The notes below the pieces were generated by a model that ran no database searches, had not been told where the DNA came from, and was given only the letters and a program-made list of their open reading frames with translations. DNA of 64,000 nucleotides from Nitrospira sp. (lineage in GTDB: Bacteria; Nitrospirota; Nitrospiria; Nitrospirales; Nitrospiraceae). A program made the translations under genes and the position numbers. The stretch covers positions 124,001 through 188,000 of the forward strand of contig JARFXO010000004.1 of the NCBI GenBank assembly GCA_029194665.1, read 5' to 3'. Numbering within the stretch: position 1 is the first letter of the stretch; each line of letters begins with the position of its first letter. This document shows, in pieces, positions 11,958 to 59,517 of this stretch.

Positions 11958-12397
11958 TGTAGAGCGCTTCCTTCTCTCACTGGTTTAATAAATTAAAAGC
12001 CTTTGAATTTCTTGAGGCCCTCCAGCATCATGATAATGCCGATTCTGCTGGTGAAGTGTGGATTGACCGGCCGACGTACCCGTGTAAGCTCCTCCCAATC
12101 GGAGACAGCTCAAACGCACAACGTTCTGAATCTTCGAATGCCATCCTATTACTAGGGGGTTAGGAAGACTGCTCATCAATTCCTGGGACAAGGGGGTGGT
12201 GTATTCTGATTGCTAACTACAATTCGCCCCCAGGGTTATTCACCTGGTAGTCTTCTGTGGGAACTGGTCAAATGACCAGTGGCCCCTGGCCACCCTGCCA
12301 GGTTATTTTTCTTTCTATGGAGTCTGCGGTCGTCACATTTTCCGAAGGTGCTCCCAGTTGTTTGAACCTGATTCCACCTGTTGTATGTGGGGATGAC
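11958..12397. other. intergenic region upstream of the sensor kinase
   Basis: No credible gene is seen. The region contains a perfect 7+7 palindrome, ACTGGTC-AAAT-GACCAGT, at 12263-12280, about 120 bp before the kinase start. It could be an operator for the kinase/regulator operon. It also holds the promoter region of the divergent RadC-like gene. Confidence 0.4.
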
Positions 12398-13993
12398 ATG
12401 AGAACATCGGGTTCGATGAAGCAGACTGAGCCGATGTCGGAAAACACACACAGTGATCCTTCGGCATTGACGCTTCGAGAGGCTACCCAGTGTGCCTCGC
12501 GCATAATCCGTTTCGGAACGGGTGCCGCTTCAGTCGAGACGGTCTCTCAGCTGCTGTCCGAATATTTGTACGATCATTTCCGTGTTCCTGCAACGGGTGC
12601 GCCTGCACTGTTATTGTCACGCGTCTTTGTCACGCGGCCTCTTGATACGCTGGAGCCTCATTTGAAAATCATGGCGGAGGGGATGGCGGGAGCGTATGAA
12701 CTGTCTCGTCAGGCGCGATGTTGTGTATTGATGGGCTCGTGTGGTCAGTTTCATTTTTGGTGTCATCCTCGCCTGTCTACGCGCTTCGGCTGCGTGCCGC
12801 TTGAGAGCCCTGGTTTTAATACCCGGATGCCGATGTTTTCCTACCTTCTCGATCAACTCGAGATTGGGTCACTCTCGGCGCAGCAACACGATGCCGCTTT
12901 CTTGTTGAGTGATTTGGATCGGGCATTCAATGTCTTTCATATTGAAGAGGCGTTAGGGCATCCGTTTATTCCGGCGCAGGCGGAATTTGTTCAACAGTAT
13001 GGGGTGAAATCGGTGATTGGTTTCGGTGGGCGACTCCCATCTGGTGAGGCCTTTGCCGCAGTGCTCTTTTCGGCCGTCCACATTCCTCCTGCGGCCGCCA
13101 ACCATTTTCGGGTGATTGCGCTGAGCGTGTACCTGACGTTTCTCAACTCCGATCTCGCGTTTATCGAAGAGCATCTCCGTGATGGAGAGTCCCTGAAGGG
13201 GAATGGCAGGAACGATTTGTCGTCCCGTCTGGTCTTGGAAGCGCAGAGGCGAGGACATGAGCGTATTCTCGATCTCTACGATCGTTTAGGGCGAGAACAG
13301 GCAGAGCATATCGAGCGAACGACACAAGAGTTGCGCGCCCTCACGAGCCGATTGTTTACGTCGGAAGACAGCTATCGTCGTCAACTCTCACTTGATTTAC
13401 ATGACGAACTGAGCTCGAAGATTGGCAGCATTATGTTTAACATGGGGAGTCTTCTTGCCGCCCCTCCTCAGGATCAGCATCAATTGCTCGACAGTATCGG
13501 CCGGTTCCGAGAAGAACTGGATGTGTTGTCAACCTGGTCTCGCTCAAAAGCGCATGAGTTGCATCCAGCCGTTTTGACGAATTTGGGCCTGGTGGCGGCT
13601 GTCAAGCGGTTGGCTGCGGAATATGCGAATCGCTTGAAGTGTCCCGTTGAGGTGCGCGTGGCAGGAGAGAGCGTGCCCGAGATGTGTCCTCTTGTCAGCA
13701 CGACGATCTATCGTGTGATTCAAGAGGCATTGCGTAATGTTGAGAAACATGCGAAAGCCAGCCGGGTTGCAGTTGCGCTGTTCATGGAAGCGGATGGGCT
13801 TCGAGTGCGTATAGAAGACAATGGGGTTGGGTTTGATAGGGAAAAGGTACGAAAGGAGGTGGCGGGGATCGGTCTCATTGGTATTGAGGAACGCATTCGG
13901 TTAGTCAGTGGGGCGTTGTCAATTGGCGAGTGCTGTGGAACGGGAACACGGATAGACGTCATGGTTCCACACAAAAGGAAAGCATGGGAATAG
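12398..13993 (+). CDS. NarL-type sensor histidine kinase
   Basis: The protein has about 531 residues from the ATG at 12398, which follows GGGGAT. The first 330 residues lack a recognisable membrane segment and may form a cytoplasmic sensory region. A coiled linker (EQAEHIERTTQELRAL) leads to a HisKA_3 dimerisation domain with the phosphoacceptor His in SLDLHDELSSKIG. The HATPase domain shows EALRNVEKHAKAS and IEDNGVGFD. Two in-frame ATGs at 12416 and 12434 are alternative starts. The response-regulator gene follows after 3 bp. The input signal is not known. Confidence 0.85.
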   Translation: MRTSGSMKQTEPMSENTHSDPSALTLREATQCASRIIRFGTGAASVETVSQLLSEYLYDHFRVPATGAPALLLSRVFVTRPLDTLEPHLKIMAEGMAGAYELSRQARCCVLMGSCGQFHFWCHPRLSTRFGCVPLESPGFNTRMPMFSYLLDQLEIGSLSAQQHDAAFLLSDLDRAFNVFHIEEALGHPFIPAQAEFVQQYGVKSVIGFGGRLPSGEAFAAVLFSAVHIPPAAANHFRVIALSVYLTFLNSDLAFIEEHLRDGESLKGNGRNDLSSRLVLEAQRRGHERILDLYDRLGREQAEHIERTTQELRALTSRLFTSEDSYRRQLSLDLHDELSSKIGSIMFNMGSLLAAPPQDQHQLLDSIGRFREELDVLSTWSRSKAHELHPAVLTNLGLVAAVKRLAAEYANRLKCPVEVRVAGESVPEMCPLVSTTIYRVIQEALRNVEKHAKASRVAVALFMEADGLRVRIEDNGVGFDREKVRKEVAGIGLIGIEERIRLVSGALSIGECCGTGTRIDVMVPHKRKAWE

Positions 13994-13996
13994 TTT

Positions 13997-14638
13997 ATGC
14001 GCGTTGTGATTGCTGACGATCACTATTTTATGGCACAAGGCATGCGCCAACACGTTCTGGACCTCCGTTTGTCTGCTGCGCCGGAAGGATTTGAGGTGGC
14101 AGGAGTCGCCACGAATGGTGAAGACTTGGTGGCACAGGTCCGTGAGCTTCAACCCGATCTCGTCTTTATAGATATTTCTATGCCGAAGCTCAATGGCTTT
14201 GAAGCCGCCCGCCAAATTCGAGCGATTCAACCTATGGTGAAGATTCTTTTCGTGACCATGTATCAAGAAGCTGACTATGTCGCTCGTGCGTTTGCCTCGG
14301 GTGGCAATGCCTATCTCACGAAAACCTGTGATCCGACAGAGATCGGTCAGGCCCTCACACAGTTGTTTCAAGGGAATGCGTATGTGAGCCCGACAGTCGG
14401 GGGTGGTGCGTTACTAGGAGAATCGACTACGGAAGGGGTAGGCACGCATTCGCTGACTCCACGCCAAGTCGAAGTGTTACGACTCTTGGCTCGTGGTCAT
14501 TCGATCGAAGAGGTTGCGACAGCACTTCGTTTAAGCCGCAAAACGATTGAGTACCACAAAGCGAGGATGATGAAATCTCAACAACTCTCGACGAACGCCG
14601 ATTTACTGAAGTTCGCATTGGTGCGGGGCATCACGTAA
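13997..14638 (+). CDS. NarL/LuxR-type response regulator
   Basis: This 213-residue regulator is the cognate partner of the upstream kinase. The receiver domain (1-125) has the acidic pocket IADDH and the phosphoacceptor Asp59 in LVFIDISMPK. The C-terminal LuxR helix-turn-helix (about 150-210) has SLTPRQVEVLRLLARGHS and LSRKTIEYHKARMM. Kinase and regulator are almost certainly co-transcribed. The targets are unknown, and the convergent LuxR-type gene downstream is not in the same operon. Confidence 0.92.
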   Translation: MRVVIADDHYFMAQGMRQHVLDLRLSAAPEGFEVAGVATNGEDLVAQVRELQPDLVFIDISMPKLNGFEAARQIRAIQPMVKILFVTMYQEADYVARAFASGGNAYLTKTCDPTEIGQALTQLFQGNAYVSPTVGGGALLGESTTEGVGTHSLTPRQVEVLRLLARGHSIEEVATALRLSRKTIEYHKARMMKSQQLSTNADLLKFALVRGIT

Positions 14639-14693: not shown

Positions 14694-15512
14694 TCATCCC
14701 GCTGAGGCCATGCCGTGGGGGGAGGGAAGCAGCCCTCCTTTGTGCGCTTTGGCAATCGCTTGGGCACGAGTTGTCGTGTTGAGCTTTTTGAAGATCTCCT
14801 CTACATGAAATCGAACCGTTCGTTCGGTGATGTCTAAGATCCTGGCGATTTCCCAGGTCGTTTTTCCCTCTTCGATCCACATGAGAACTTCTGTCTCTCG
14901 AGGTTTTAGTGGTGCCGTTGCAATGGACTCGTTGGTAGGCACAGGAATGTTCTTGGTCAGGGCGTCATGCAGACATGAACTGATGTAGTCGGCCATGTCT
15001 TTATACCGGAAATTGTCTTTGTCGGTTCCTCCGGCGAAGGCGACGAAACTGATTCGTCCTGATCGAGGATCGATCGTTCCGCCGATAATTCCGTTCGCAA
15101 CTCCATATCCCCGTGCTTCTTCCATAAACTCTTGCTCGATTACCATACTCTGTTTCGTGATCGTGTGATTCCAGACGGTTGTTTGTTGACTCCTCATCCA
15201 CGTGAGTGCGACTGGATCAATCCCGATGTAGCGATTGTTGAGATACCGTTCCAGCCAGGGGAGAGGATAGGAAATATTGATGACATTGGCGTGATCCTGA
15301 TCGAGGCCTTCAGGGGAGAGTGGACCGGAGGCTGCCACAATTTTGTCACATGGCAAGAGAGTCTGAGCAAGTGTCAGCGCACGATGCGTGTCTTCATTGG
15401 TTTGGGAGGTGTAACAGTAATGGACGATTTCAAGTGTTTGCTGGAGCTCCCGTTTGGAAAACCCGATGAAGAGATGAGACGGAAATGGCCTGGACTGTGA
15501 GTGGATATACAT
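14694..15512 (-). CDS. LuxR-family regulator with autoinducer-binding-like domain
   Basis: From the ATG at 15512 the protein has 272 residues. The N-terminal two thirds match the autoinducer-binding domain layout, with YIGIDPVALTWM, the aromatic pocket residues around it, and ARGYGVANGIIGGTIDP. The C-terminal GerE helix-turn-helix contains LKPRETEVLMWIEEGKTTWE and ERTVRFHVEEIFKKLN. No luxI-type synthase gene is in the window, so it would act as a LuxR solo or respond to a distant synthase. An upstream in-frame start at 15581 gives an unlikely extension. Confidence 0.8.
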   Translation of the reverse strand: MYIHSQSRPFPSHLFIGFSKRELQQTLEIVHYCYTSQTNEDTHRALTLAQTLLPCDKIVAASGPLSPEGLDQDHANVINISYPLPWLERYLNNRYIGIDPVALTWMRSQQTTVWNHTITKQSMVIEQEFMEEARGYGVANGIIGGTIDPRSGRISFVAFAGGTDKDNFRYKDMADYISSCLHDALTKNIPVPTNESIATAPLKPRETEVLMWIEEGKTTWEIARILDITERTVRFHVEEIFKKLNTTTRAQAIAKAHKGGLLPSPHGMASAG

Positions 15513-15670
15513 AGTAATGAATCCTATCGTAGACCAGGATGCTTGACTATAGTCGATTTGCAGGGTAATACCTCCCTCCAAAGGGGGGGATTGCTTGTCC
15601 AGAATTAATTAGAGGGCTAAGAGTCTGAGGTCTAGGGGTGGGGGAGGGGCGTGAAAGAGGGGTTGATACA

Positions 15671-15922: not shown

Positions 15923-15993
15923 CTCGATTATGGTGTCTTCTAGGTTGGGAGGAGGGCGGCATTACGTGCTGTCCAGCTGTCTGGAGGCTCACC

Positions 15994-16308
15994 ATGTGGA
16001 TGCTATGGCTCCTCAGTCGGTTCTTCATAGCCGTTCCAGCCTCCGCCGAGGTCGGCTTTGACGAGAAATACGAGCGCGACTACGACATTTTCAATCCGAT
16101 CAATTGACTGCGCCCCGACAATCCCCTGAACCCGATCAATTCGGTTGATCCAAGGAACCCATTCAACTCCATGAAAAGTGTCGATCCGGAGAATCCTGCA
16201 AATCCGCTCAACGAGTACGACCCGAACAATCCGTTGACCCCGATTATTCGCTACAATCCCAGCACTCCTTTCACACCCCTGAATAACTTTCCTGAACGTC
16301 AACGCTAG
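15994..16308 (+). pseudogene. exported Asn/Pro-rich repeat protein with in-frame TGA
   Basis: The ATG at 15994 follows a good GGAGG. It begins with a signal peptide (MWMLWLLSRFFIAVPASAEV) and continues GFDEKYERDYDIFNPIN up to a TGA at 16105-16107. Directly after it, in the same frame, the sequence goes on for 66 codons as a repetitive protein: DNPLNPINSVDPRNPFN, then VDPENPANPLNEYDPNNP, to a TAG at 16308. The DP-x-NP-x-N repeat runs through the stop position, so one ancestral codon (for example CGA or CAA) has become TGA. Confidence 0.7.
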
Positions 16309-16363
16309 CCAACCAGCCAGGGAAACAACTGTGAGGTTCTCCACGGCGGTCATGCCTTCAAAC

Positions 16364-16807
16364 CTATAGTCCCCCGTGGTCGGCAAAGCTGTAGTACCGG
16401 TCCTCGCCCAGCACAACATGATCAAGCACGGCGATCCCGAGCAGGTCGCCGCCCTCTTTAAGGCGCCGAGTCAGGGCGCGATCTTCTTGACTGGGAGTCG
16501 AATCACCGCTGGGATGGTTATGCGCCAGGAGGACCGCGCTAGCGTTCATGAGGATCATGGGTTTGAACACTTCGCGGGGATGGACGATGCTCAGGGTGAC
16601 TGATCCGATGCTGACGGTGTTGATCCCGATGACCGCATGTTTCGCGTCGAGGCCCACGACCATGAAATGCTCGCGATCGAGTCCATCGAAGAGCGGAGCG
16701 AGAAACCGGTGCGCTTTATTTGAATCGCTGATCCGGACGTCACCGGCGGTTGCTCCTGATTCTTTGACCAGCATGACACGATAACGAGGAGGTGAGTAGG
16801 AGCGCAT
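16364..16807 (-). CDS. RadC-like JAB-domain protein (copy 2)
   Basis: From the ATG at 16807, preceded by GGAGAG, the protein has 147 residues. The JAB metal motif is LAHNHPSGDSTPSQEDRALT, and the domain ends YYSFADHGGL. It is clearly related to the copy at 11475-11957 in length and motif spacing, but the two sequences have diverged well apart. That suggests independent acquisition or an old duplication. Its exact role is unknown. Confidence 0.8.
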   Translation of the reverse strand: MRSYSPPRYRVMLVKESGATAGDVRISDSNKAHRFLAPLFDGLDREHFMVVGLDAKHAVIGINTVSIGSVTLSIVHPREVFKPMILMNASAVLLAHNHPSGDSTPSQEDRALTRRLKEGGDLLGIAVLDHVVLGEDRYYSFADHGGL

Positions 16808-17183
16808 CTCTTTTCTCTCCGAACAGTGAAACAGATGGCACTGGTGAGTCTTAGAAACGGTCGGTCTCAGAGCCATGAAAAGGGAAATTGTTGGGCAGGC
16901 TCGACGGGCCTGAAACAATCATTGATACGAAGGTCGGAACGGTATGGCGATCATTCTCCAGATATTCAGGAGGGCCAGATCAAAACAGAGAGTAAATCTG
17001 TTGAGGGAGCTTCGCGATTGCACACTACTGCCCGATGTTAAAGTCGGCGCGGCGGCCTGAGTGATGAGTAAAGCGCTGGACTTAATCTGTCAGACAGTTT
17101 CAGGGCGAATTACAATCCCGTCCACGATACCTGTGTTAGCTCGTTGCGGCTCCATCTAGACCTGTCCCGTCTTGCCTGAGAAC
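16808..17183. other. gene-poor stretch
   Basis: I see no supported gene, RNA or repeat here. Frames on both strands are short and lack ribosome sites. The left edge holds the upstream region of the RadC-like gene. Confidence 0.4.
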
Positions 17184-17648
17184 ATGTTTCAAAAGGTCAC
17201 GCAGCACATGGCTGAGCAAAATCCTTCCATCGTGTCTTTCTCCTGGTCCATCACTAACGCGACGACCGCGAGTCCTGAGTTTGTCAGGCCTGCGATCACG
17301 ATGGACGTGATTCTGGTATAAAAGACGCGATGGGTCGTCCTATGCGACGAAAGGGGAACCTTCACGGCGAGCATCTTTCGGGAGAGTTCTGATGCTCCAG
17401 GAAGCTGGAGTCGAGACATTTATGTTTGGACAGGGAGGGCTTGGAAATTCAGGAGGAAGGACTCAAAGAAATACACGAGTCCTCCGGACCCTCCTTCGGA
17501 TGCCAATGCAACCGAGATCGACGGCGTGGAATGCTGGACGATGCATCGGCCAACGGATGAACAGGTCGAGCTGCTGCGCGAGCTAATATCGGGAACTCCG
17601 CCTCCGGGGCGAGTGCTAACGTATGTAGCCCATTCGGTCATTCGATGA
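17184..17648 (+). pseudogene. hypothetical gene broken by one in-frame TAA
   Basis: Reading from the ATG at 17184 (or 17208) gives MFQKVTQHMAEQNPSIVSFS, then ATTASPEFVRPAITMDVILV, then TAA at 17319-17321. The frame continues without another stop for 108 codons: KTRWVVLCDERGTFTASIF, SRDIYVWTGRAWKFRRKDSK, and LLRELISGTPPPGRVLTYVA, stopping at 17648. The two halves look like one protein of about 154 residues with a single nonsense change. No family is recognised. The WTGRAWKF segment looks like a beta-hairpin of a small domain. Confidence 0.55.
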
Positions 17649-17784
17649 AGGAAGTCATTGACCGGCAGAAGAATCCTAGCGCAGTGCGTGGTTGCCGCGT
17701 CGTCTGCAGCACAAGAGAGGGACAGAAGCCGTTTGTGGAATAGGGGCGGCTCGGCTGGCAGCACGGCCTTAGGGAAGACGCCGG

Positions 17785-18696
17785 CTAGTCACCGCTCGGT
17801 GAATCGCCTTCGCGGAACCGATCTGCCAGCGCCTGGATCGTCATGGGTGCATTGCCCTCGGCGCGGTTGTTCACGAGCACATAGGCTCTGCGCTCTTCTC
17901 TCACGGCCTGGCGCACCAGTTCCACCGTATCCCGACGCATCTCCGGTAGCTTCTCGATGATCTTCGTGTACGGTTCGGCTCGTTTCTTAGCTTGCTCGTA
18001 GGACATCTTCAGCGGCGTGAGGAGGCGAAGCACCGTGAACGGTGCAGTGAAGCTTCCCATGCGCTTGCTTTGCTCAGCTAATGGCGGCATGTAGCTCCAA
18101 TGGCTATATACATGCGAGACACCGTGCGCCTCGAGGACCTTGTGGTACTCAGAACCAAGCAGACCGGCATTACGGATTTCGACGGCATAGCGAAAGTCCT
18201 TGGGAAGCTGCCCGAAGAACCCATCCAGCCGTGAGCAGAACTCGTCCGAAGACATCCCGTGTCGCTGAAATTCGAACAGGAACGGCCCAGCATGCGGCTC
18301 GAACTTCGCCTCCCGGTACGGCGTGAGCACCAGTTCGTTGAAGAGCGTCGCATCGAGAAACCGAGCATTGGACTGGCCTGCCTTGGCTCCGTACCGCGCC
18401 TGTTTCGCATAGCTCGGAATCGTGATCTCTTCCCACACCTTGAAGCACATCTCAAAGTCTTGAGGAATCTGATTGAGATAGCGACGAAGTTGATTCGCCG
18501 TGGGCGGTCGATAGAACGTCGCGTCGTTGCCCACGGTCCTGAAGAGTGGCTCATCCCTGTACTTGTACTGGGCGTACTCACCCAAACACTCCTGAGCGAA
18601 TCTGCTCTTCGCGTACTCTCGCTTATACACCTGGCCCTGCCAACCTTCGTAGGTCCACGTGCTAGTGCCAAAACGGATCAGCGGGGAGAGCAGCAT
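17785..18696 (-). CDS. DUF72 protein
   Basis: From the ATG at 18696 the protein has 303 residues. DUF72 proteins have a TIM-barrel-like fold and unknown activity. The N-terminus (IRFGTSTWTYEGWQGQVY) and the C-terminal YVLVNNRAEGNAPMTIQAL are family signatures. It lies 16 bp after dnaE2 on the same strand and is probably the last gene of the lexA-like/imuB/dnaE2 operon, which points to a role linked to DNA damage. That link is inferred only from position. Confidence 0.85.
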   Translation of the reverse strand: MLLSPLIRFGTSTWTYEGWQGQVYKREYAKSRFAQECLGEYAQYKYRDEPLFRTVGNDATFYRPPTANQLRRYLNQIPQDFEMCFKVWEEITIPSYAKQARYGAKAGQSNARFLDATLFNELVLTPYREAKFEPHAGPFLFEFQRHGMSSDEFCSRLDGFFGQLPKDFRYAVEIRNAGLLGSEYHKVLEAHGVSHVYSHWSYMPPLAEQSKRMGSFTAPFTVLRLLTPLKMSYEQAKKRAEPYTKIIEKLPEMRRDTVELVRQAVREERRAYVLVNNRAEGNAPMTIQALADRFREGDSPSGD

Positions 18697-18712
18697 GGCC
18701 ACGAGTGTACGG

Positions 18713-21700
18713 CTATCCGACGACTTCCTCAATGGGCTCGATATCAGGGGCTGTGTCACGGCTCGCCAACAGCCTGAGTTCTTTGGCGGTCAAGGTGACG
18801 GTGGAGAACTGCTCTTCCACTAGTCCGGTCACCACATAGGCCTGGTTCCTTGCCAACAGATGACAGTACCGGCGGTAGGCGTCGGGGAACAGGGTCGCGT
18901 CGTAGAGTCCGGTCTCGTCCTCGAAGGTGACAAACTCCATCGGATCGCCTTTATTTGTGGAAATGATCTTCTCGGTGACAAGCCAACCAATCACTGTGAC
19001 CTCTTTGCGAACGTGCTGAGCCAGGTTCTTCGCAGGAATATGTGGGATGCGAGCGAGCACGTCCTTGAAGAGATCCAAGGGATGACAGCTCAACGGAAAA
19101 CCGAATAGTTCCAGCTCGTGAGCGAGCTTCTGTTTGAAGGAATACTCAGGGGGAATCGGCAGGTAGCGCGGCGGCTTGGCAGCCTGCGAGGCGAAGAATC
19201 TCCAGAGCAGTGCCGGTCGGGTGAGTTCCCCTGCAATCGAGTCGAAACAACCCGCCTTGATCAGGAGCTTCGCTTGGGCGACATCGGGCTGAACACGGTC
19301 CAGAAAGTCACGCAGCGACCGGTACGGACCGTTCGCCTCTCGCTCCGTAATGATCCGCTTCGCGAGGCCTTCGTGGAGGGACTTGATCTGCATCAGCCCT
19401 ACGCGAAGCGTCTTGCCCGATCCAGTGTACGCCCACTCGCTCGCGTTGATGTCAATCGGGAGGATCGTGAGACCCATGCGTCTCCCCTCGGACAGATAGG
19501 CGAAGGTCGAGTAGTACCCGCCTTGATTGCTCACCACGGCGGCGATGAACTCGGCGGGATAGTGAGCCCTCAGGTATGCGGACTTAAAACTCACCTGAGC
19601 GTAGCTGGCACTGTGAGGTTTGCAGAAGCTGTAGCCCGCGAAGCTCATAATCATGGCCCAGATTTGGTCAATGACAGATCGCTGCAGGCCGCGTGCCGAT
19701 GCGCCTGCATAGAATTGCCGCTGGTAGTCACGGAGCTGTCGCTGCTTATGCTTCTTGCTCAAGACCTTCCTGAGTTGATCTCCGTCTTCAACAGTGAACC
19801 CACCTAACGCGACAGCGACCTTCATCACGTCTTCCTGGTAGACCATGATGCCATGTGTCTCGGCGAGCACATCATCCAACACCGCATGGAGAGACTTGTA
19901 ACGACGTCCGTGGGCGCGACGCACGAACTCATCCGCAAACACATTGGCGGCTGGACGGATGATCGAGGAGATGACAACGAGGTACTCGAACACATCAGCC
20001 TCCGCTCGTCTGGCAGGAGGCATGCCTGTCCACAGCTTCCTGAGCAGAAGCCGTGTCGCCGGTGATTCGATGTAGAAACAGCCCATCGTGTCTCCTCGTC
20101 GAATCAGCTCGTTCGTGCCCGGATCGCTGATGGGGTCCCAGGTCGCATAGTCAATCACTCGACCGGTGTTCTGCTGGATCGCAGCCAGAGCATCACGAAT
20201 CACAGCGAGCGAACGATTGCCGAGCAGGTCGATCTTGACCAACCCGGCTTCTTCCGTCTGATCCTTCTCCCACTGGATCACCGGTAGGCCGGAGGCAGAG
20301 ATTTCCACCGGCACATAGCGACGAATCTCGTCAGGCACCAGCACCACTCCTCCTGGATGGAGACCGAGATTACGGAAGTGCCCTTGGAGCTGAACGGACC
20401 AGAACAGAATCTCCGGCCACGGGGCTCTCAGACGAAGTGCCTCGCAGACCTGCGTCGCCCAGGTCTTCACGGTCATCCCAGGTATCACGTCCACAAAGTC
20501 GGCTCGTCGCTGAACTATGGTCAGGGCCTTGCCGATCTCTTCCGCAGGGATCCCGTATACCTTGGCGATCTCTCGTATGGCGGCCCGAGTCGCCAGAGTG
20601 TTCTGGTTGGCGACCATCGCCGCGTGATGTTGCCCGTAGTGGGCGAACACCCACTCGAGAATCTTCGGTCGCTCATCCCACGGGAAGTCGATATCGATGT
20701 CCGGTGGATCGTGCCGGCCTGGGTTGAGGAATCGCTCGAAGAGCAGGTGGTGTCGAATGGGATCGACGTGCGTGATCCCAAGGCAGTACGACACGATGGA
20801 CGCGGCCGCTGAGCCTCGGCCACAAGTTCGTGGCGCTTGTCGCACGATCTCATCGACGATGAGGAAGTAGTCGGCATAGCCTTTCTCCCGGATGACTCTC
20901 AACTCCTTCTCAATCCGCTGCTTCACCTCGTCAGACAGGTCGCCATAGCGCCAGCGCGCTCCCTCGCAGGTCTTCGTTCGTAACCTCTCGAAGGCCGCAC
21001 CCGCGGAGAGCCGACGGAAGGAGGGGAAGATCATTTCCCTGAAGTCCCAGTTGGTGTAGCAGGCTTCCGCAATGCGACAAGTGTTCGTGAGGGCTTCGGG
21101 GACATGAGGGAAGTACCGGGCAAGGACTTTCTCGGGCATCAGCCACTGCGACGGCGCACAGCATTGATCCGCACGGAGCCGAGAGAGGGTCGTATTCTCC
21201 GCAATGGCACGAAGCAGCTGGTGCGCGTGGTAGTCAGCTGGGCGAAGGAAAGAGGCCCGAGCGGTCGCCACAGGCGGAAGCCCGCGCTGCCGGCTGAACG
21301 CGACGGCCTCGTGCATCGTTGGGTCAGGCGTCAGCTCAACATAGAGGTCCTCTTCCGAGTCCTGACTCCAGGCTGTCAGGGCGGCGCGGTCATCCGAGAG
21401 GATCACCAACCCGCCTCGATGCCGAGTGACCGCGCCGGTGAAGTCGAATGACTCGTCACAGTGGCGAGCAGAGAGGACACGGCAGAGATTCGCATAGCCA
21501 GCCGGTGTCTTCGCCAGCAGCACTGCACGGTGCGATTCCTGAACCAGTTCAGCGCCCAAGATGGGCTTGAGTCCTGTCTCTCTCGCCACATCGAGAAACC
21601 TAATGGCTCCGTAGAGCCCATTCGTGTCGGTGAGGGCCAGTGTGTCTTGGCCTTGCATGCGCGTGGCCTCGCAGAGTGCCTCCAAGGTGGGCACCCCTTG

Positions 21701-21751
21701 CATGGGGGAATAGGACGAATGGGCGTGCAAGTGAATGAAGGCGGATGGCAT
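18713..21751 (-). CDS. dnaE2: error-prone DNA polymerase III alpha subunit
   Basis: DnaE2 performs translesion synthesis during SOS mutagenesis together with ImuB. The 1012-residue protein starts with a PHP domain (FIHLHAHSSYSPMQGVPTLE) and has the C-family polymerase core with PDIDIDFPWDERPKIL and DGDQLRKVLSKKHKQRQL. A C-terminal OB-fold (VTVIGWLVTEKIISTNKGDP) follows. Length is close to other DnaE2 proteins and shorter than DnaE1. The start codon abuts the imuB stop (TGAATG), so the two genes are translationally coupled. Confidence 0.93.
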   Translation of the reverse strand: MPSAFIHLHAHSSYSPMQGVPTLEALCEATRMQGQDTLALTDTNGLYGAIRFLDVARETGLKPILGAELVQESHRAVLLAKTPAGYANLCRVLSARHCDESFDFTGAVTRHRGGLVILSDDRAALTAWSQDSEEDLYVELTPDPTMHEAVAFSRQRGLPPVATARASFLRPADYHAHQLLRAIAENTTLSRLRADQCCAPSQWLMPEKVLARYFPHVPEALTNTCRIAEACYTNWDFREMIFPSFRRLSAGAAFERLRTKTCEGARWRYGDLSDEVKQRIEKELRVIREKGYADYFLIVDEIVRQAPRTCGRGSAAASIVSYCLGITHVDPIRHHLLFERFLNPGRHDPPDIDIDFPWDERPKILEWVFAHYGQHHAAMVANQNTLATRAAIREIAKVYGIPAEEIGKALTIVQRRADFVDVIPGMTVKTWATQVCEALRLRAPWPEILFWSVQLQGHFRNLGLHPGGVVLVPDEIRRYVPVEISASGLPVIQWEKDQTEEAGLVKIDLLGNRSLAVIRDALAAIQQNTGRVIDYATWDPISDPGTNELIRRGDTMGCFYIESPATRLLLRKLWTGMPPARRAEADVFEYLVVISSIIRPAANVFADEFVRRAHGRRYKSLHAVLDDVLAETHGIMVYQEDVMKVAVALGGFTVEDGDQLRKVLSKKHKQRQLRDYQRQFYAGASARGLQRSVIDQIWAMIMSFAGYSFCKPHSASYAQVSFKSAYLRAHYPAEFIAAVVSNQGGYYSTFAYLSEGRRMGLTILPIDINASEWAYTGSGKTLRVGLMQIKSLHEGLAKRIITEREANGPYRSLRDFLDRVQPDVAQAKLLIKAGCFDSIAGELTRPALLWRFFASQAAKPPRYLPIPPEYSFKQKLAHELELFGFPLSCHPLDLFKDVLARIPHIPAKNLAQHVRKEVTVIGWLVTEKIISTNKGDPMEFVTFEDETGLYDATLFPDAYRRYCHLLARNQAYVVTGLVEEQFSTVTLTAKELRLLASRDTAPDIEPIEEVVG

Positions 21752-22936
21752 TCAATGACTCCTCCCATAGTGAATGGCCTGCTCTCCAAACCGGGCATGG
21801 AGCATGTCGAGGGCCACGGCAAGGGCTTGTGTTTGCTGACGCCGTTGGTGTTCGTCAACTGGCAGCTCATCGAAGAGGGAGACTTGCTCAGCATAGGCCG
21901 TCAGGCCGGTCATACTTACCGCCATCTGGCGGAGACGGACCCGACGACGGAAGCATCGCCGGAAGAGTGAAGAGAGCACGGGCGAGAGATCGCATTCCCA
22001 GCAGGTCTCCGGCCTGACGCGCTCCTGCTTCGTGACCTCGACCTGATCGCTGTAGCGGATCGTGAGGGAAAGATTGCTGCAGGCACGCCGTTGACTCCGC
22101 AGCATGCGACAGAGGCATTGCAGGATATCCAAGAGGCGTCCCCAGAGCAGAGGGTCATCGACCTCATCCGGGTCGAGGGTGGCGGTCTCTTCGAGACTTG
22201 GCTGGATAGCCGGAGGTAGCACAGGGACATGATCGATCCCTTGTGCCCATCGGGAGAGCTGCCCCGCGTAGTCGCCCAGGACGAGTTCCAATGCATCGAG
22301 CGGACTGTCGGCCACATCTCCCAAGGTGAGGAGATTGAGGTCGTCCAGCCGCTCCAGGACCTTGCGCAGACAAGGTCGATGAAGTCCTGGCAGCAGTCGC
22401 ACGGAAAGCGGGGACATGAAGACGCGCTCGGACCCATGCCGGACTTCGCATAGCTCGGAGGGCTCAATCAATGTCGCTGCCGTCTGAGCCACAAGTTTGT
22501 TGCTCCCCACTCCGGCCATACCGTCGAGTTGATGGCGTTCCAGGACTTCTTGCTGCAACTTCGCGGCGACGTCACAAGCAGGCCCGAAGAGCCTTGCCGT
22601 TCCTGTCACATCCATCACGAAGGACCCCGGCTGAGAGGGTTCCCACACGGGCGCATAGTGCGTAACTACGCTGAGGAGCAGTTGGGTTGCACTGCGGACT
22701 CGATATAGGTTGGGCGAAAGCACATGCAGTGAGGGACACAAGCGACGAGCGTGCTCGAGGGGCATCCCGGCATGGAGGCCGTCCTGCTCTCCCTCTATCG
22801 AGACTTCACGAAGCAGTGCGCGAGGCGTGTTAAGTGGGGCAATGGCGACTGGTCGGGTGCGGAGAGCAGGATCGTTCAGGCGAGCCAGCGCGACTTCAAA
22901 CGACGGAATGGCAAAGCAGACAATCTGACGGTCCAT
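21752..22936 (-). CDS. imuB: ImuB-like Y-family polymerase homologue
   Basis: ImuB is a non-catalytic Y-family protein that links DnaE2 to the sliding clamp. The 394-residue protein has the Y-family fold (LHAGMPLEHARRLCPSLHVL; GVGSNKLVAQTAATL), but its N-terminus reads IVCFAIPSFEVALARL where active polymerases have an Asp-rich DxDxFFA. The first catalytic acid is therefore missing. A clamp-binding motif QVSLF lies at 351-355. It is the middle gene of the mutasome operon, 30 bp after the LexA-like gene. Confidence 0.88.
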   Translation of the reverse strand: MDRQIVCFAIPSFEVALARLNDPALRTRPVAIAPLNTPRALLREVSIEGEQDGLHAGMPLEHARRLCPSLHVLSPNLYRVRSATQLLLSVVTHYAPVWEPSQPGSFVMDVTGTARLFGPACDVAAKLQQEVLERHQLDGMAGVGSNKLVAQTAATLIEPSELCEVRHGSERVFMSPLSVRLLPGLHRPCLRKVLERLDDLNLLTLGDVADSPLDALELVLGDYAGQLSRWAQGIDHVPVLPPAIQPSLEETATLDPDEVDDPLLWGRLLDILQCLCRMLRSQRRACSNLSLTIRYSDQVEVTKQERVRPETCWECDLSPVLSSLFRRCFRRRVRLRQMAVSMTGLTAYAEQVSLFDELPVDEHQRRQQTQALAVALDMLHARFGEQAIHYGRSH

Positions 22937-51556: not shown

Positions 51557-52216
51557 GCCATTTGACGCGTTCCCCCATTGAGGACAGGGCAATCCCTCTT
51601 GTTCGAGGAAGGCCTCCGACCGACCTGTTCTTCTCACTCAAAAGAATCGTTTTGGATTTCCGCGCGAATGATCGTGGAAGCCTCCTTGCGGGCGAACGAT
51701 CCCCAGGCGCCGGTGGGAGCGATTCGCAAAGGCCTCTTTCTCCGCTTTTACGGGCATGAGTTTGATGCCGACAGCCGCGCCAAAATCCTCGCCGCCATTG
51801 ATCGAGCAGCCCATCCCACCAGTAGGTAAGTTCAAACTGGCAGACCCCGCGCCAGTGCTCAGGGCAGGCATTTTGACAGGCCAGACTCATTGTGCGCAGT
51901 CAAACAGGAAGTCTCGAAAGTGTGGACTCCGAGTGACCTCGGATGTCACAGCATCGTGCCAGACTATGTCCACTATCACGACGTCCTGACGATGGACAAG
52001 GAGACTGGAACCATCATGACACTGTTGTTCTGAGCTACAGGTATGTTTCCGGGTCACCGGAAATAGTCGAGGTGAAAATCTTTTCTGCCTTCTTCGTTCA
52101 TCCGACAAGCAAAGAGCGCCATTCTTCTTTCAGGTACGAAAGAGCGGTTGTATTATCTGTCCTTTACGACCATGTGATTCTTTACCGCATTCCCAATCTT
52201 GCTTCGTGATCTGAGC
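51557..52216 (+). other. region of gene fragments before cas3
   Basis: Two stretches read as protein but lack starts or are broken. One, in 51578-51829, contains VGAIRKGLFLRFYGHEFDAD. The other, 51830-52033, is open for 67 codons without an initial start and contains KVWTPSDLGCHSIVPDYVHY. Neither matches a family I recognise. The cas operon promoter should lie in the right part of this region. Confidence 0.4.
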
Positions 52217-54424
52217 GTGACGGCCTATCTCGCCCATGTGCGCCGGAACGACGACGGGTCGTTTGCGATCCACCATCTTGAAGACCATTTGCGCGCAGTG
52301 GGGGATCTCGCGGGGGAGTTCGCGTCGAGCTTTGGCCATGCTGATTGGGGCCGACTCGCAGGGATCTGGCATGATCTTGGAAAGTATTCCGCTGCCTTCC
52401 AAAACTATATTGCTCACGCAAGCGGCTTTGATCCTGAGGCACACATTGAGGGTGCCAAAGGCCGAGTGAATCACTCCTCAGCAGGAGCGCTTCATGCGGT
52501 CGTAAAACTTGGCGGGAAGGGAAGGCTTCTTGCCTATCTCATTGCTGGTCATCACGCGGGATTGCCCGACTGGCACTCTGATGAACATGCCCTTGCCTCA
52601 CTATCCAAGCGATTAGAAGATGAGCAGCACTTGCGAGCCATCTCTAATGTGACCATTCCTGCTGATGTGCTTGATCCTGGTATTACTCCAGTCACAAAAC
52701 CTCTGGGCGACAGAGATGGCCTTGCGCTCTGGTTGCGGATGTTGTTTTCCTGTCTGGTTGATGGGGACTTTCTCGACACAGAGAAGTTCATGGATGGCGA
52801 GAAAGCGCAACCTCGTGGAGCGTACTCCTCGCTCGTGGAGCTTCTCGGAAAATTAGATACGCACATGGCGCAGCTCATGGCCGAGGCTCAGCCGACACCT
52901 GTGAACCACGTGCGTGCTGAAGTGCTTCGTCAGTGCCGTGACCAGGCGTCAAGTGCGCCAGGCATCTTCTCGCTGACTGTTCCTACTGGTGGCGGCAAGA
53001 CGCTCTCCAGTTTGGCTTTCGCATTAAGTCATGCGATCCACCACAACAAGCGCCGCATCATCTATGTCATCCCCTATACCAGCATCATCGAGCAAACGGC
53101 AGGAATTTTCCGAGGTATTTTGGGTGAAAACGTCGTTGAACATCACAGTAATCTCGATCCAGAAAAGGAAACCGCCAAGAGCCGCTTGGCAACTGAGAAC
53201 TGGGATGCGCCGGTCATCATCACGACCAACGTGCAGTTTTTGGAGTCCCTATTCGCCTCTCGAACTTCCAGCTGTCGCAAACTCCATAACATCGTGAACA
53301 GTGTCGTGGTTCTGGACGAAGCGCAACTGCTCAATCCTGAGTTCCTGCAACCGGTCTTGGACACCATCAATCTGCTAGCACGGCATTATGGCGTCACGTT
53401 TGTGCTTTCTACAGCGACTCAGCCGGCGCTGAATTCACGGGAGGGATTTGGTTGGACATTCAGGGGACTGGATGGCGTGCGCGAAATCACGACCGACCCG
53501 GATGCGTTGTATCGCAATCTTAATCGGGTGACAGTTGAGATGCCGCCAGATTTCCATGCTTGCCGAGGATGGGAACAAATTGTTACCGAGCTAATAACTC
53601 ATGAGTCGGTGCTGGCCATCGTCAATACTCGGCGTGACTGCCGCGAACTATATCGACTGATGCCGGAAGGAACGATCCACTTGTCAGCTGCCATGTGTGG
53701 CGAGCACCGATCTCAAGTCATTGCAAATATTCGAGAGAGGTTGGAAAAGAAAGTCTCTACGCGGGTCGTCAGCACACAATTGGTTGAGGCTGGGGTAGAT
53801 ATCGACTTTCCGGTTGTATATCGCGCACTGTCCGGCCTGGATTCCATTGCTCAGGCATCCGGTCGCTGCAATCGGGAAGGAAAGTTAGATCGCGGCAAGG
53901 TAGTTGTGTTTGTGCCCCCCAAGTCATCGCCTCCGGGTACGCTCCGGCGTGCCGAACAAACCACCGTCAGTCTCTTGAGCGGCAGCACGAGTGACCCCAT
54001 GGCGAGGGAGTTGTTCACGCGGTATTTTGAGCATTTCTACATGAAAGCGGACTCGCTCGACAAGCATGACATCAACGACTTGTTGACGAAGGATGCAGGA
54101 GAGCTGAAGATTCAATTCCGCAGCGCCGCCGATAGGTTCAAGCTGATTGACGACGTGGAAAGCCAAACCATCCTTGTCTGGTATGGTGAGAGCCAAGCGT
54201 TGATTGGAAAGCTCAAGAAGGATGGGCCGGAACGGTGGCTCATGCGAAAGTTGCAACGATACAGCGTGAACCTGCCCCGCCGGGACGTGGAAAAGCTACT
54301 CCAGTCTGGCGAAATCGAAGAAGCCTGGACGGGAATCTTCGCACAGAAGGTCAGCACGTTATACGACGATAAAATCGGTGTGACCATTGGCGGTGCATTA
54401 GCTGCTGAACAACTAATCGGGTGA
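52217..54424 (+). CDS. cas3: type I-C CRISPR helicase-nuclease Cas3
   Basis: Cas3 is recruited by Cascade to unwind and degrade the target strand. From the GTG at 52217 it has 735 residues. The N-terminal HD nuclease shows GIWHDLGKYSAAFQ and LIAGHHAGL. The SF2 helicase follows with Walker A PTGGGKTLSS, the DEAQ box VLDEAQLL, motif III STATQPA, and QLVEAGVDIDFP with QASGRCNREG. The length is normal. Frame and motifs are intact. A TTG start at 52199 is an alternative. It is the first gene of the cas operon. Confidence 0.93.
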   Translation: MTAYLAHVRRNDDGSFAIHHLEDHLRAVGDLAGEFASSFGHADWGRLAGIWHDLGKYSAAFQNYIAHASGFDPEAHIEGAKGRVNHSSAGALHAVVKLGGKGRLLAYLIAGHHAGLPDWHSDEHALASLSKRLEDEQHLRAISNVTIPADVLDPGITPVTKPLGDRDGLALWLRMLFSCLVDGDFLDTEKFMDGEKAQPRGAYSSLVELLGKLDTHMAQLMAEAQPTPVNHVRAEVLRQCRDQASSAPGIFSLTVPTGGGKTLSSLAFALSHAIHHNKRRIIYVIPYTSIIEQTAGIFRGILGENVVEHHSNLDPEKETAKSRLATENWDAPVIITTNVQFLESLFASRTSSCRKLHNIVNSVVVLDEAQLLNPEFLQPVLDTINLLARHYGVTFVLSTATQPALNSREGFGWTFRGLDGVREITTDPDALYRNLNRVTVEMPPDFHACRGWEQIVTELITHESVLAIVNTRRDCRELYRLMPEGTIHLSAAMCGEHRSQVIANIRERLEKKVSTRVVSTQLVEAGVDIDFPVVYRALSGLDSIAQASGRCNREGKLDRGKVVVFVPPKSSPPGTLRRAEQTTVSLLSGSTSDPMARELFTRYFEHFYMKADSLDKHDINDLLTKDAGELKIQFRSAADRFKLIDDVESQTILVWYGESQALIGKLKKDGPERWLMRKLQRYSVNLPRRDVEKLLQSGEIEEAWTGIFAQKVSTLYDDKIGVTIGGALAAEQLIG

Positions 54425-54432
54425 GGGATTCT

Positions 54433-55170
54433 ATGGCCAAATCGTATTGTCTTGAGGTGTCGGGCGACTTTGCCTGTTTCACGCGGCCAGAGATGAAGGT
54501 GGAGCGTGTCTCTTATGATGTGATGACTCCATCGGCAGCAAGAGCAGTATTTGAATCTATTGTCTGGAAACCAGCTATGCGATGGCGAGTGACTAGGATC
54601 GAAGTGCTGAAGCCGATCAGGTGGATCAGTGTTCGTCGGAATGAAGTGGGAGCCGTGGCCTCTACCCGGAATGTTCAGACTGCTATGGGGGCTGGCACTG
54701 GCAGCTTAGGGCTCTACGTCGAAGACGAACGTCAACAACGTGCAGGCTTGTTCTTGCGCGACGTGGCCTACCGCATTCACGCCCACATTGAACTTCGCGA
54801 CCCCAGCTTTCATAAGTCTCATTTCCCACACCTGTCCAAAGTTCCGATCAATCGCGGGGAAGACGATCTGCTGACGATGCCTGATAACAATGCTGCGAAG
54901 TTCATGAGCATGTTCGAGCGACGAGCTTCACGCGGCCAATGTGTCAATCAACCGTATCTTGGCTGCCGTGAATTCGCCTGCTCGTTCAGATTGGTAGAGG
55001 ACGTGAAGGATGAACCGAAACCGATCGCAGAGACAAGGGATTTAGGCTGGATGCTGTATGACTTGGACTACAGCAACCCTGCCGATCCCAAACCGCGTTT
55101 CTTCCAAGCTCGAATGGATACCGGCGTCGTCAATGTCCCGGCATGGGAGAGCGAGGAGGTGAGGGGATGA
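54433..55170 (+). CDS. cas5c: Cas5 of type I-C (crRNA-processing)
   Basis: In type I-C, Cas5 replaces Cas6 and cuts the pre-crRNA at the repeat, staying bound to the 5' handle. From the ATG at 54433 it has 245 residues. EVSGDFACFTRPEMKVERVS and YDVMTPSAARAVFESIVWKP are family hallmarks. The RAMP fold continues with GCREFACSFRLVED. A GTG start at 54421 overlapping the cas3 stop is possible. It overlaps cas8c by 4 bp. Confidence 0.93.
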   Translation: MAKSYCLEVSGDFACFTRPEMKVERVSYDVMTPSAARAVFESIVWKPAMRWRVTRIEVLKPIRWISVRRNEVGAVASTRNVQTAMGAGTGSLGLYVEDERQQRAGLFLRDVAYRIHAHIELRDPSFHKSHFPHLSKVPINRGEDDLLTMPDNNAAKFMSMFERRASRGQCVNQPYLGCREFACSFRLVEDVKDEPKPIAETRDLGWMLYDLDYSNPADPKPRFFQARMDTGVVNVPAWESEEVRG

Positions 55171-56918
55171 TCCTCCAATCGCTCTACAATTATTACCAAC
55201 GAAAGCCGGATCTGCCACGCGAGGGATTCGAGTGGAAAGAAATTCCATTTGTCATCGAATTGAACAAGAGCGGCTCAGTGGTTCAGATCGAAGATACGAG
55301 AACTACTGAAGGCAAAAGGAAGCGGGCGAAATCCTTTCTCGTCCCCCAAGCCGTTAAGAAAGCGAGCAACATTGCCTCGAATTTGTTGTGGGGAAACGTC
55401 GAATATGTCGTCGGTTTGCCAGATCCGAAGAAGCTGGCTGAAAGGAAAAACAACGGTAAGGAAGGAGATTACAGAGAGCGACTGAAGGAAATGCATGAGA
55501 CCTTCATTGGGGCCATCAAATCTCTCCCTCCACCATGCCAAATTGATGCGGGCGTTCGCGCCGTTTGTAAATTTTGTGAAGATATCGATCTCACCGGTCT
55601 TCAGCGGTCCGGTGATACCTGGAAAGAGGTGCAAGCAAGCAATTCAAACATAACCTTTCGTCTTCAGGGTGATACCGAACTCGTTTGCCAACGTCAGGCG
55701 GTCATCGATGCCGTGTCCAAAGCAACCGCGAAGGATACACCTGACGGCGTGTGTCTTATCACGGGAAATCCTGATGAGGTCGAGCGCCTACATCCAGCCA
55801 TTAAAGGCGTGTGGGGCGCTCAAACGTCAGGAGCCAACATCGTTTCGTTCAATCTTCCCGCTTTTAATTCGGGGGGTAAGGAGCAAGGCGCTAATGCGCC
55901 CATAGGCAAACAATCCGTCTTTGCTTACACCACCGCACTCAATCACCTGTTAGCGAAGGACAGTAGGCAGCGCCTCCAGATTGGCGATGCCTCCACGGTA
56001 TTTTGGGCTGATAAGCCGACTCCGCTAGAGGACCAATTTGCTGACATTTTTGCCGAGCCACCCAAGGATGACCCCGACCGCAACGCGCGTGCGATAAAAG
56101 CCTTGTACGAATCGCCACGCCAAGGAGTGGCGCCGGTCAAGGACGATCAGACCCGTTTCTTTGTGTTGGGACTTGGTCCCAATGCTGCACGAATTGCTAT
56201 CCGCTTCTGGCATGTAGGAACGGTTGCAGAATTAGCGAAGACTATTCAGCAACACTTTGATGATCTTGAAATCGCTCGGGCACCGTTCGAGAAGCCTTAT
56301 CTCTCGGTATTCCGTCTGTTGCTAGCCACCGCTGTGCAGAGCAAGAGCGATAATATTCCGCCGAATCTTGGGGGGGACGTGATGCGATCGATTATGGAAT
56401 GCCTCCCATACCCCAACACACTATTGCAAGGCGCGATACGACGCGTACGTGCTGAGCAAGATGTGTCTTATCCACAAGCAGCTATTCTCAAAGCCTGTCT
56501 CAATCGTCGGATGCGTTCTGAAGAAACCTCAGAAAAGGAGATGACCGTGTCACTCGATTATTCCAACACAAACTCGGGTTACCGCTTAGGACGACTTTTT
56601 GCCGTTCTGGAAAAAATCCAGGAGGAGGCGAACCCTGGAATCAATGCCACGATACGAGAACGTTTCTATGGGGCGGCTTCGAGCACTCCTGTAACAGTAT
56701 TTTCCAATCTTATGAAGCTCAAGAACCATCATCTCGCCAAGTTGGAAAATCCTAGCCGGAAGGTGAACCTGGAGCGTCTCATCAGCGAAATTATCGACGG
56801 AGTCAGCGATTTTCCGTCTCACTTGAATCTTGCGGACCAAGGTCGCTTCGCCATCGGCTACTACCACCAGCGGCAAGCCTTATTTTCAAAATCCACAGAA
56901 GCTAAACAAGGAGACTAA
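55167..56918 (+). CDS. cas8c: Cascade large subunit Cas8c (Csd1)
   Basis: Cas8c recognises the PAM and non-target strand in the I-C Cascade. Starting at the ATG at 55167 (ATGA overlap with cas5), it has 583 residues. The beginning [20 protein letters not shown] is typical. [20 protein letters not shown] and [14 protein letters not shown] belong to the conserved first half. An internal small-subunit product (Cas11c), known from I-C systems, may be translated from within its 3' part; I did not locate a sure start. Confidence 0.93.
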
Positions 56919-56920
56919 AG

Positions 56921-57844
56921 ATGGCCATTCAGAATCGCTACGATTTCGTGCTGTTGTTTGACGTAAAAGACGGCAACCCGAACGGTGATCCCGACGCCGG
57001 CAACCTGCCACGCCTAGACGCTGAAACTGGACAAGGGCTCGTGACAGACGTATGTCTTAAGAGAAAGATTCGGAACTTTGTTGCGCTTACCAAAGACCAA
57101 ACCGAATCCTCAGAAAAGCTTCAAGGGAAAGAGAAGCGTTATGAAATCTATGTGAAAGAGAAGGCAATCCTAAATAAGCAGCATGAACGTGCTTACGTGG
57201 CTATTGGCCGTAAGGATCTGCTTGATGGGGATGATAAGAAACGCAAGGGTGGTGACGCTGTTAATCAGGCGCGCGATTGGATGTGTGCGAACTTCTTTGA
57301 TATACGGACATTCGGTGCTGTCATGTCTACGGGGGTGAATTGCGGTCAGGTTCGGGGGCCAATCCAGATGACATTCGCACGGTCGATCGACCCTATAGTT
57401 GCATCGGAACATTCAATCACTCGGATGGCGGTTGCGACTGAAGCGGAAGCGGAAAAGCAGCAAGGGGATAATCGAACGATGGGACGCAAGTTCACGGTGC
57501 CGTACGGCCTATATAAAGCACATGGATTTGTGTCGTCTTTTCTTGCGAGACAGACAGGATTCACGGACGACGATCTAACCACTCTTTGGGAGGCTCTCGC
57601 ATCAATGTTTGAGCACGACCGATCTGCGGCTCGGAGCCAAATGGCTACTAGAGGACTCTACGTCTTCAAACACGATTCCGAGCTTGGCAACGCTCCCGCC
57701 CACAAACTGTTCGATCTCATACAAGTCAAACGATCAAACGGTAATGGGGGACCACCAAGGAGCTTTAGCGATTATTCTGTGACGACGCCCGATGACGGAC
57801 CGATCAATGGTTTTACGGGCGTGGCCTTCATCAAAAAGGTCTGA
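56921..57844 (+). CDS. cas7c: Cascade backbone subunit Cas7 (Csd2)
   Basis: Cas7 forms the helical backbone along the crRNA. The 307-residue protein starts behind AAGGAG with [20 protein letters not shown], the Csd2 signature. [20 protein letters not shown] and the C-terminal [12 protein letters not shown] are also conserved. It lies 2 bp after cas8c and 5 bp before cas4. Confidence 0.94.
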
Positions 57845-57849
57845 TAGCT

Positions 57850-58470
57850 GTGCCAGAAGACGACGACCCCATCATGATCTCCGCGTTGGAACACTGGAGC
57901 TATTGCCCGCGCCAGTGCGCGTTGATTCATGTCGAGCAGACGTTCGATGAGAATCTCTACACGCTGCGTGGGCGGGCCGTGCATAAGCGGGTGGATGAGC
58001 CGGAGACAGAGGAACAAGCCGGGGTGCGGATTGAACGGGCGCTGCCTTTGTGGTCCAAGGCTCTCGGGTTGATCGGAAAGGCCGATGTGGTGGAGTTTCA
58101 CGGGGAGACACCGTATCCCGTGGAGTACAAGCATGGGCCGCATCGGGCACACGAGCATGATGACTTGCAGCTCTGCGCACAGGCCATGTGCCTGGAAGAA
58201 ATGCTGGGAAAGCCTGTGCCGCGCGGAGCGATTTATCATCACAGCTCGCGGCGGCGTCGCGAGGTGGCGTGTACGCCTGAACTGCGGGCACGGGTGGTGC
58301 AGTCTATTCAGGCGATTCGTGCCATGTTGGCGGCCAAGCACCTTCCTCCACCGGTGAACGATAAGCGATGTACCCATTGCTCCCTTCAAGAATCCTGCAT
58401 GCCTGCTGCGATCGGTGAGGGTCGGCGGGCCTCTGCTGTGGTGCGCAACCTCTTTACTATCCACCCGTGA
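57850..58470 (+). CDS. cas4: Cas4 RecB-like nuclease
   Basis: Cas4 helps choose PAM-proximal spacers and trims prespacers. The GTG start at 57850 gives 206 residues. The iron-sulfur Cys are in WSYCPRQCALIH and the C-terminal KRCTHCSLQESCMP. The RecB nuclease core shows GKADVVEFH and YPVEYKHG with the catalytic Asp, Glu and Lys. It sits between cas7 and cas1 as is usual in I-C loci. Confidence 0.93.
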   Translation: MPEDDDPIMISALEHWSYCPRQCALIHVEQTFDENLYTLRGRAVHKRVDEPETEEQAGVRIERALPLWSKALGLIGKADVVEFHGETPYPVEYKHGPHRAHEHDDLQLCAQAMCLEEMLGKPVPRGAIYHHSSRRRREVACTPELRARVVQSIQAIRAMLAAKHLPPPVNDKRCTHCSLQESCMPAAIGEGRRASAVVRNLFTIHP

Positions 58471-58477
58471 GACTGCC

Positions 58478-59509
58478 ATGCATCAACTATTGAACACGCT
58501 CTACGTCACGACGGAAGGTGCGTACGTGCGGGTGGATCATGACACGCTGAAGATCGAGGTCGAGAAGGAGACCAAACTGCAAGTGCCGTTGCACCATATC
58601 GGCGGGGTGGTCTGTTTCGGCGATGTCATGATGAGTCCGGCAGCGATGGCTCGTTGCGCGGAGGATGGGCGCTTCGTGGTGTTGCTGGATCGGAATGGAC
58701 GGTTCAAGGCACGTATTGAAGGCCCAGTGAGCGGGAACGTGTTGCTGCGTTGCGCACAGCATGAAGCGATGCGCGACTCTGAACGAACGCTGTCGATCGC
58801 GCGAAACAAGGTCGGAGGGAAGATTCAAAACTCCAGGCAAATTGTCTTGAGAGGCGCGCGCGAAGCGGACGATCCAACCGATGCCGAGGCATTGCGGAAC
58901 ACCGCCGATGCGCTCGCGAATGCCGTGGGAAGAATTCCTCAGTGCGATAATCTTGAAACGCTGCGTGGCATTGAAGGCGAGTCGGCACGTAGCTATTTCT
59001 CCACCTTCGATCGGATGATCAAGGAAGATCGCGAGGCCTTCAAGATGGAGGGCCGAAACAGGCGTCCGCCGACCGACCCCATCAATGCGTTGATGTCGTT
59101 TCTGTATGCGCTCGTCCTCAATGATTGTGTCGCGGCAGCGGAAGGCGTCGGCCTCGATCCGCAAATGGGCTTTCTGCATGCGCTCCGTCCAGGGCGGGCT
59201 GCGTTGGCCTTGGATCTCATGGAGGAGTTGCGCAGCCTGTTGGCTGATCGGCTGGTGCTGACGGTGATCAACCGTCGTCAGGTCACTGCCAAGGATTTCA
59301 CCCAGCGCTCAGGTGGCGCGGTACACATGGAAGATGCCGCTCGCAAAGAAGTCATCGTCGCCTATCAGAAGCGTAAGCAAGAGGAGATCACGCATCCGGT
59401 ACTTGATCAGAAGATGCCCTTGGGCTTGGTGCCGCACGTGCAGGCTCGCTTGCTGGCGCGTGTGTTGCGTGGTGATCTGGAGGCCTATCCACCCTATCTG
59501 TATCGGTAG
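58478..59509 (+). CDS. cas1: Cas1 integrase
   Basis: Cas1 inserts new spacers at the leader end of the array with Cas2. From the ATG at 58478 it has 343 residues. The metal residues are in [20 protein letters not shown] (Glu and His) and [16 protein letters not shown] (Asp). The N-terminal beta domain begins [17 protein letters not shown]. Upstream in-frame starts lie inside cas4 and are not needed. Confidence 0.95.
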
Positions 59510-59517
59510 GAAGCAAC

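Follow-up and report, generated by a model that had tools for sequence, protein, structure and literature searches.

An in-frame TGA in a Nitrospira gene for a small exported Asn/Pro-repeat protein very probably marks a nonsense-mutated copy

When the repeats of a gene continue in frame beyond a stop codon, is the gene broken, or is the stop read through? This question is raised by a plus-strand frame at 15994-16308 of the window, by which we mean the whole 64,000-nucleotide stretch of Nitrospira sp. DNA analysed here (on contig C4 of a 4.8-Mb host genome in 17 contigs). The frame comprises 37 codons, a TGA at 16105-16107, 66 more codons and a TAG at 16306-16308. An earlier note had described a ribosome site, a signal-peptide-like start, repeats and this single TGA, and all four were confirmed. 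The ribosome-binding site, recognised by its sequence, is GGAGG at 15983-15987 (+), 6 bases 5' of the ATG at 15994. Comparable purine-rich stretches precede the start codons of two homologues (L092 and L095), which also back this ATG with signal-peptide regions that align gap-free. The N-terminal piece (15994-16104, +) consists of a signal-peptide-like start at 15994-16047, reading MWMLWLLSRFFIAVPASA and assigned by eye, and the conserved mature start GFDEKYERDYDIFNPIN. The 66 codons after the stop (16108-16305, +) are a repeat region of 12-residue Asn/Pro units, with no second stop and no frameshift, and the TAG is the end point in the related loci L091, L092 and L094 as well.

Judged from its homologues, this is no chance frame, because the translation matches them both before and after the TGA; L092, for instance, aligns at 68% over 116 residues (15994-16305). 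The earlier observation that the repeat character is the same on either side of the TGA is upheld. The minus strand is also open, from 16003 to 16425, but the start, the signal peptide and the codon-level conservation are all on the plus strand, and an antisense gene was rejected. Antisense frames are open in many relatives of the repeat gene too, and we read this as an effect of Asn/Pro codons. The two nearest neighbours are both on the minus strand: a divergent upstream gene for a LuxR-type regulator with an autoinducer-binding domain (14694-15581; Pfam GerE and Autoind_bind) and a convergent radC (16364-16918; Pfam RadC, 9.6e-42), which also lies beside the orthologues in L091, L092 and L094. 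Histidine kinase-like and response regulator genes (12257-14638) adjoin the LuxR-type regulator, and on the other side radC, DUF72, DNA polymerase III alpha-like and ImuB-like genes stand in a row (16364-22936). L091 has radC, DUF72 and polymerase genes in the same order as the window.

How widespread are relatives of this gene? A protein query with the stop written as X matched 22 of 59 genomes and, within the genus, 41 of 79, the host's own included in each count. With a profile, matches across the phylum came to 69 of 395 genomes, and only four of these lie outside the host's taxonomic family. The scan of named genomes gave 66 loci, labelled as Nitrospira or Nitrospirota groups except for two bins labelled Nitrosospira (L074 and L086); some contigs occur both among the named loci and among the numbered genomes (L133, L131 and L146, for instance, are the contigs of L089, L087 and L056), and the two sets are not independent samples. 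Open-frame homologues, one per locus, were found in 57 of the 66 loci, leaving nine loci that have none. They are 82-157 residues long (median 118), with 48 of the 57 between 110 and 125. The architecture of the family is a signal peptide, the sequence GFDxxYERDYNIFNP, usually six 12-residue Asn/Pro-rich units, and a PFxPL end. Thus the Asn/Pro repeats of the earlier note stand, and its DP-x-NP-x-N unit is refined to one of 12 residues, present six times in most relatives and once fewer in the window copy. Not all 57 frames are whole: L086 is cut by a contig end, L089 stops early and L085 has an insertion, and L079 and L096 have no clear signal peptide. In a quick tree of the family, which omits L085 and L086 and has stars on 8 of its 54 inner branches, the window copy groups with L091, L092 and L094, the last from N. 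moscoviensis, with an SH-aLRT of 91, and all four lie beside radC. Beyond the host's taxonomic family, though within its phylum, the repeat proteins have a second branch (L134-L137), whose start is RYYxYDKNPFxPANKYDP.

The earlier note had proposed to look for homologues that lack the TGA, and had named homologues that end at it as a refutation. The former are plentiful: in the column of the window TGA, a sense codon stands in 55 of the 56 open-frame homologues aligned and a gap in one (Q 26, R 14, K 11, T 2, L 1, E 1, gap 1). In particular, the orthologue in N. moscoviensis (L094/L149), a same-genus relative with a complete genome (G060, NZ_CP011801.1, 4,589,485 bases), adjoins radC and is intact, and the DNA similarity extends from the repeat gene into radC. 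The 56 homologues had been picked as open frames, so relatives with the same stop could be missed among them. As a check on this bias, 16 of the 19 places other than our own that a profile search had marked with stops were fetched, and 13 of the 16 were readable. A stop at the window's codon is absent from all 13, and thus from every homologue, aligned or interrupted, in which the codon was sought. Among the three places not fetched, one (G027) is L009/L038, whose frame stays open as far as the natural end, and the matches of the other two are confined to later repeats. The interruptions that do exist lie elsewhere: L132 is interrupted once, in a later repeat; L133 once, near the fifth unit; and L138 twice, with a stop on each side of the position of the window TGA. 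In L144 the stop is 5' of the conserved start, with a run of N upstream, and in L139 and L140 the 5' parts are unrecognisable. At seven places (L131, L134-L137, L145 and L146) the marked stop is simply where the gene normally ends, and at three (L141, L142 and L143) the scan gave no readable repeat stretch. Breakage of the repeat genes, as these sequences read, is a recurring event at scattered places (L132, L133 and L138).

The stop is not the only oddity of the window copy. Compared with its closest relatives in a codon alignment, it has one 12-residue (36-base) repeat fewer, missing in frame at the junction between 16212 and 16213 (+), and 5 of 37 strongly conserved columns are changed (median 1 in 43), and only two of the 58 rows fare worse. 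With the stop codon masked, the tree fixed by hand, and the signal peptide and last codons left out, the window branch has an omega of 0.112, versus 0.031 for its own clade (2dlnL 5.8), and the part after the stop has 0.132, again above its own clade (2dlnL 6.05); synonymous change on this branch is near saturation. Both values are below 1, with a 2dlnL of 20.6 for the whole and 17.1 after the stop, and the 17 codons before the stop (2dlnL 0.47 and 2.95) do not decide either way. Three five-gene sets from other clades have omegas of 0.108-0.182 (star trees, whole genes), and the window copy's 0.132 after the stop is no higher than these, so the sign of relaxation comes solely from the comparison with its own clade. 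From these codon comparisons, the repeat family is clearly under purifying selection at the protein level. The window copy probably had a long functional history followed by a loss, which was probably recent because omega on its branch is far below neutral.

Altogether, we consider it highly likely that in the window copy a Nitrospirota gene encoding a small exported Asn/Pro-repeat protein has suffered a nonsense mutation. We favour this over programmed readthrough because intact homologues exist, a syntenic orthologue among them, the stop is private to the window copy among the copies examined, a repeat has been lost, conserved residues are altered, and other copies are broken elsewhere. Translation would then end at the TGA and give a 37-residue product, from which a mature stub of at most about 19 residues could be exported after the signal peptide; the repeat domain would not be made, or would be made only at a background level of readthrough. 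The loss would be recent relative to the split from the nearest relative. Of the two options in the earlier note, a fresh nonsense mutation or readthrough, the nonsense part of the first holds for the reasons just given. Its "fresh" fits the low dN/dS on the window branch, yet the copy has also lost one repeat and several conserved residues.

Does the host have a working copy elsewhere? The only other match in its genome, on contig C3 (L002, L148), has lost its 5' part and has no signal peptide. Its repeats begin directly after a 57-residue fragment of a WYL regulator with a stop, and it lies beyond a Mg-chelatase/ComM-type gene and before a nucleotidyltransferase-domain (DUF6036) gene on the other strand. 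In the tree it groups with WYL-linked family members, a label that includes loci with a WYL gene more than 2 kb away. Both copies in the host genome are, from their sequences, damaged. Since the window copy is broken by a stop and the C3 copy is truncated at its 5' end, the host species probably produces no functional protein of this family.

Alternatively, the TGA may be read through, by a near-cognate tRNA or in a programmed way, giving a short secreted stub together with a longer repeat form. The continuing repeat character, a frame open to the usual end of the family, and an omega well below 1 after the stop would all agree with this. However, no homologue examined has the stop, relatives have mainly Gln, Arg or Lys in its place, the copy has lost one repeat and conserved residues, and a search of the host genome for tRNA-Sec gave 13 matches, none over the Rfam cut-off, which 5 of 14 control genomes pass. 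We therefore regard readthrough as improbable; the earlier note had suggested it as a source of a longer secreted form, and its programmed kind found no support. Selenocysteine was rejected, as no tRNA-Sec is over the cut-off and Cys is not among the residues at the stop column, and so was an alternative genetic code, as TGA terminates 13 of the 26 window ORFs of at least 250 aa. It is very improbable that the gene is intact and that the TGA arose from faulty sequencing or assembly: one wrong base call does not explain the stop, because it differs at two positions from the Gln codon of five clade members, and the copy is abnormal in other ways as well, in its repeat number and its conserved columns. 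Finally, despite an in-frame ATG at 16171, after the TGA, it is barely credible that the halves are separate working genes, one for a 37-residue exported peptide and one for a repeat protein restarted after the stop, as the piece after the stop would lack a signal peptide and start inside a repeat, and no relative split into two genes at this place was seen among the loci examined.

If the window copy is a nonsense-mutated gene, what is the family from which it comes? The earlier note had not recognised it, and neither did Pfam and NCBIfam scans of 17 members, which gave no match better than E 0.007. The best weak Pfam resemblances among the 17 were to Bflower (PF21784; E 0.022) and Amelogenin (PF02948; E 0.0073). 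Membership of either was rejected, as the first member scores 13.2 of 25 and 11.4 of 27 bits, under the curated cut-offs, and we read the resemblance as one of composition, not kinship. Foldseek with the predicted structure of L092 (pLDDT 76.6, pTM 0.55) gave no match up to E 10. Sequence matches in the PDB (best E 1.2e-6) were to designed SAKe and Kelch repeat proteins, in which no stretch passes on its own, with a further weak match to A-kinase anchor protein 14. None of the papers listed in our literature searches dealt with this family. No relative of the repeat gene was confirmed in the viral contigs searched. Matches to 22 plasmid and 69 phage records are all below 60% identity, with none over more than 80% of the query, and the five matches listed for each kind of record are either unannotated or proteins of another sort. 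On these grounds we rejected a spread by phage or plasmid.

The intact relatives are of more interest, as many of them have virus-defence genes for neighbours. Counting the nearest ORF on either strand, we found a WYL domain in the nearest upstream ORF of at least 150 aa within 2 kb in 21 of 51 loci. Our 40 control stretches were hand-chosen at roughly evenly spread positions in eight complete genomes and were not matched to the loci; in them WYL is not among the 25 commonest of 58 families, which means at most 1 of 40. The nearest downstream ORF within 4 kb, searched with PADLOC, gave up to 9 of 55 for Cas3 and 5 of 55 for type I methyltransferase (25 of 68 families shown). Downstream ORFs of the controls matched four models, each in a single one of the 40 (three RtcR-type CARF models and MzaA), and no Cas3 or restriction model was found in the 40 stretches. 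By clusters, which were defined on these same loci and named from representatives, a WYL gene lies within 2 kb upstream in 23 of 57 loci, 31 of 57 have a same-strand gene for Cas or type I restriction no more than 6 kb downstream, and 21 of 57 combine the two. These 21, among them L044, L051 and L054, show an order that recurs on one strand in Nitrospira genomes: first the WYL regulator, then the gene for the exported repeat protein, and then the Cas or type I restriction gene. Close WYL homologues in the genus have a repeat gene on the same contig in 25 of 33 cases, at most 993 bases away, and 8 have none so placed.

The clades differ in this respect. In the first clade, a CRISPR-Cas or type I restriction gene lies at most 6 kb downstream in 22 of 25 members and a WYL regulator lies upstream in 22 of 25; in the second, the corresponding counts are 8 of 10 and 1 of 10. 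Among 20 relatives in the clade of the window copy, none has WYL within 2 kb and none has a defence cluster within 6 kb. The window copy itself, with LuxR upstream and radC downstream, is not a WYL-led defence-island gene. Elsewhere in the window, at 52199-61094, there are type I-C cas genes (Cas3c, Cas5c, Cas8c, Cas7c, Cas1c) and then a CRISPR array (59987-61094) with 16 Rfam CRISPR-DR9 repeats; tblastn searches, two with WYL queries and three with repeat-protein queries, gave no gene of either kind beside this locus.

The TGA itself would thus be ordinary gene decay, and the family is of more interest than the stop: it has no convincing Pfam or NCBIfam model, it is under purifying selection at the protein level, and most members of two of the three clades stand at the head of defence genes, a place where one would not expect an exported protein. 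The link to defence is positional only. Tentatively, the intact family could be an undescribed exported component, periplasmic or on the surface, of WYL-regulated Nitrospira defence islands, made along with CRISPR-Cas or restriction operons and perhaps hindering phage at the envelope, with the window and C3 copies as remains after its loss; we hold this to be possible, though doubtful. If the family does act in defence, it would point to a step at the envelope beside systems that are thought to be intracellular.

The nearest comparison for the window copy is the unnamed Nitrospirota family of exported Asn/Pro-repeat proteins (L037-L096). Its signal peptide (by eye), its GFDxxYERDYNIF start, its 12-residue units and its PFxPL end are those of the family, and it differs in its internal TGA, its one repeat fewer and its changed conserved residues. 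For the setting, the comparison is with the WYL-domain regulators of defence islands, BrxR and CapW. In the part of the BrxR report available to us, about half (48%) of BrxR homologues are co-localised with defence systems (PMC9122601); the strings "secreted", "signal peptide" and "Nitrospir" are absent from that paper, and an exported repeat gene between a WYL regulator and defence genes was not found in the available portions of the literature searched. Many intact relatives of the window copy have a WYL regulator before them and CRISPR-Cas or restriction genes after them, which, as far as the accessible text of PMC9122601 goes, is the setting reported for BrxR. In contrast to BrxR and CapW, the repeat protein is not itself a WYL protein, and the window copy stands outside such a setting.
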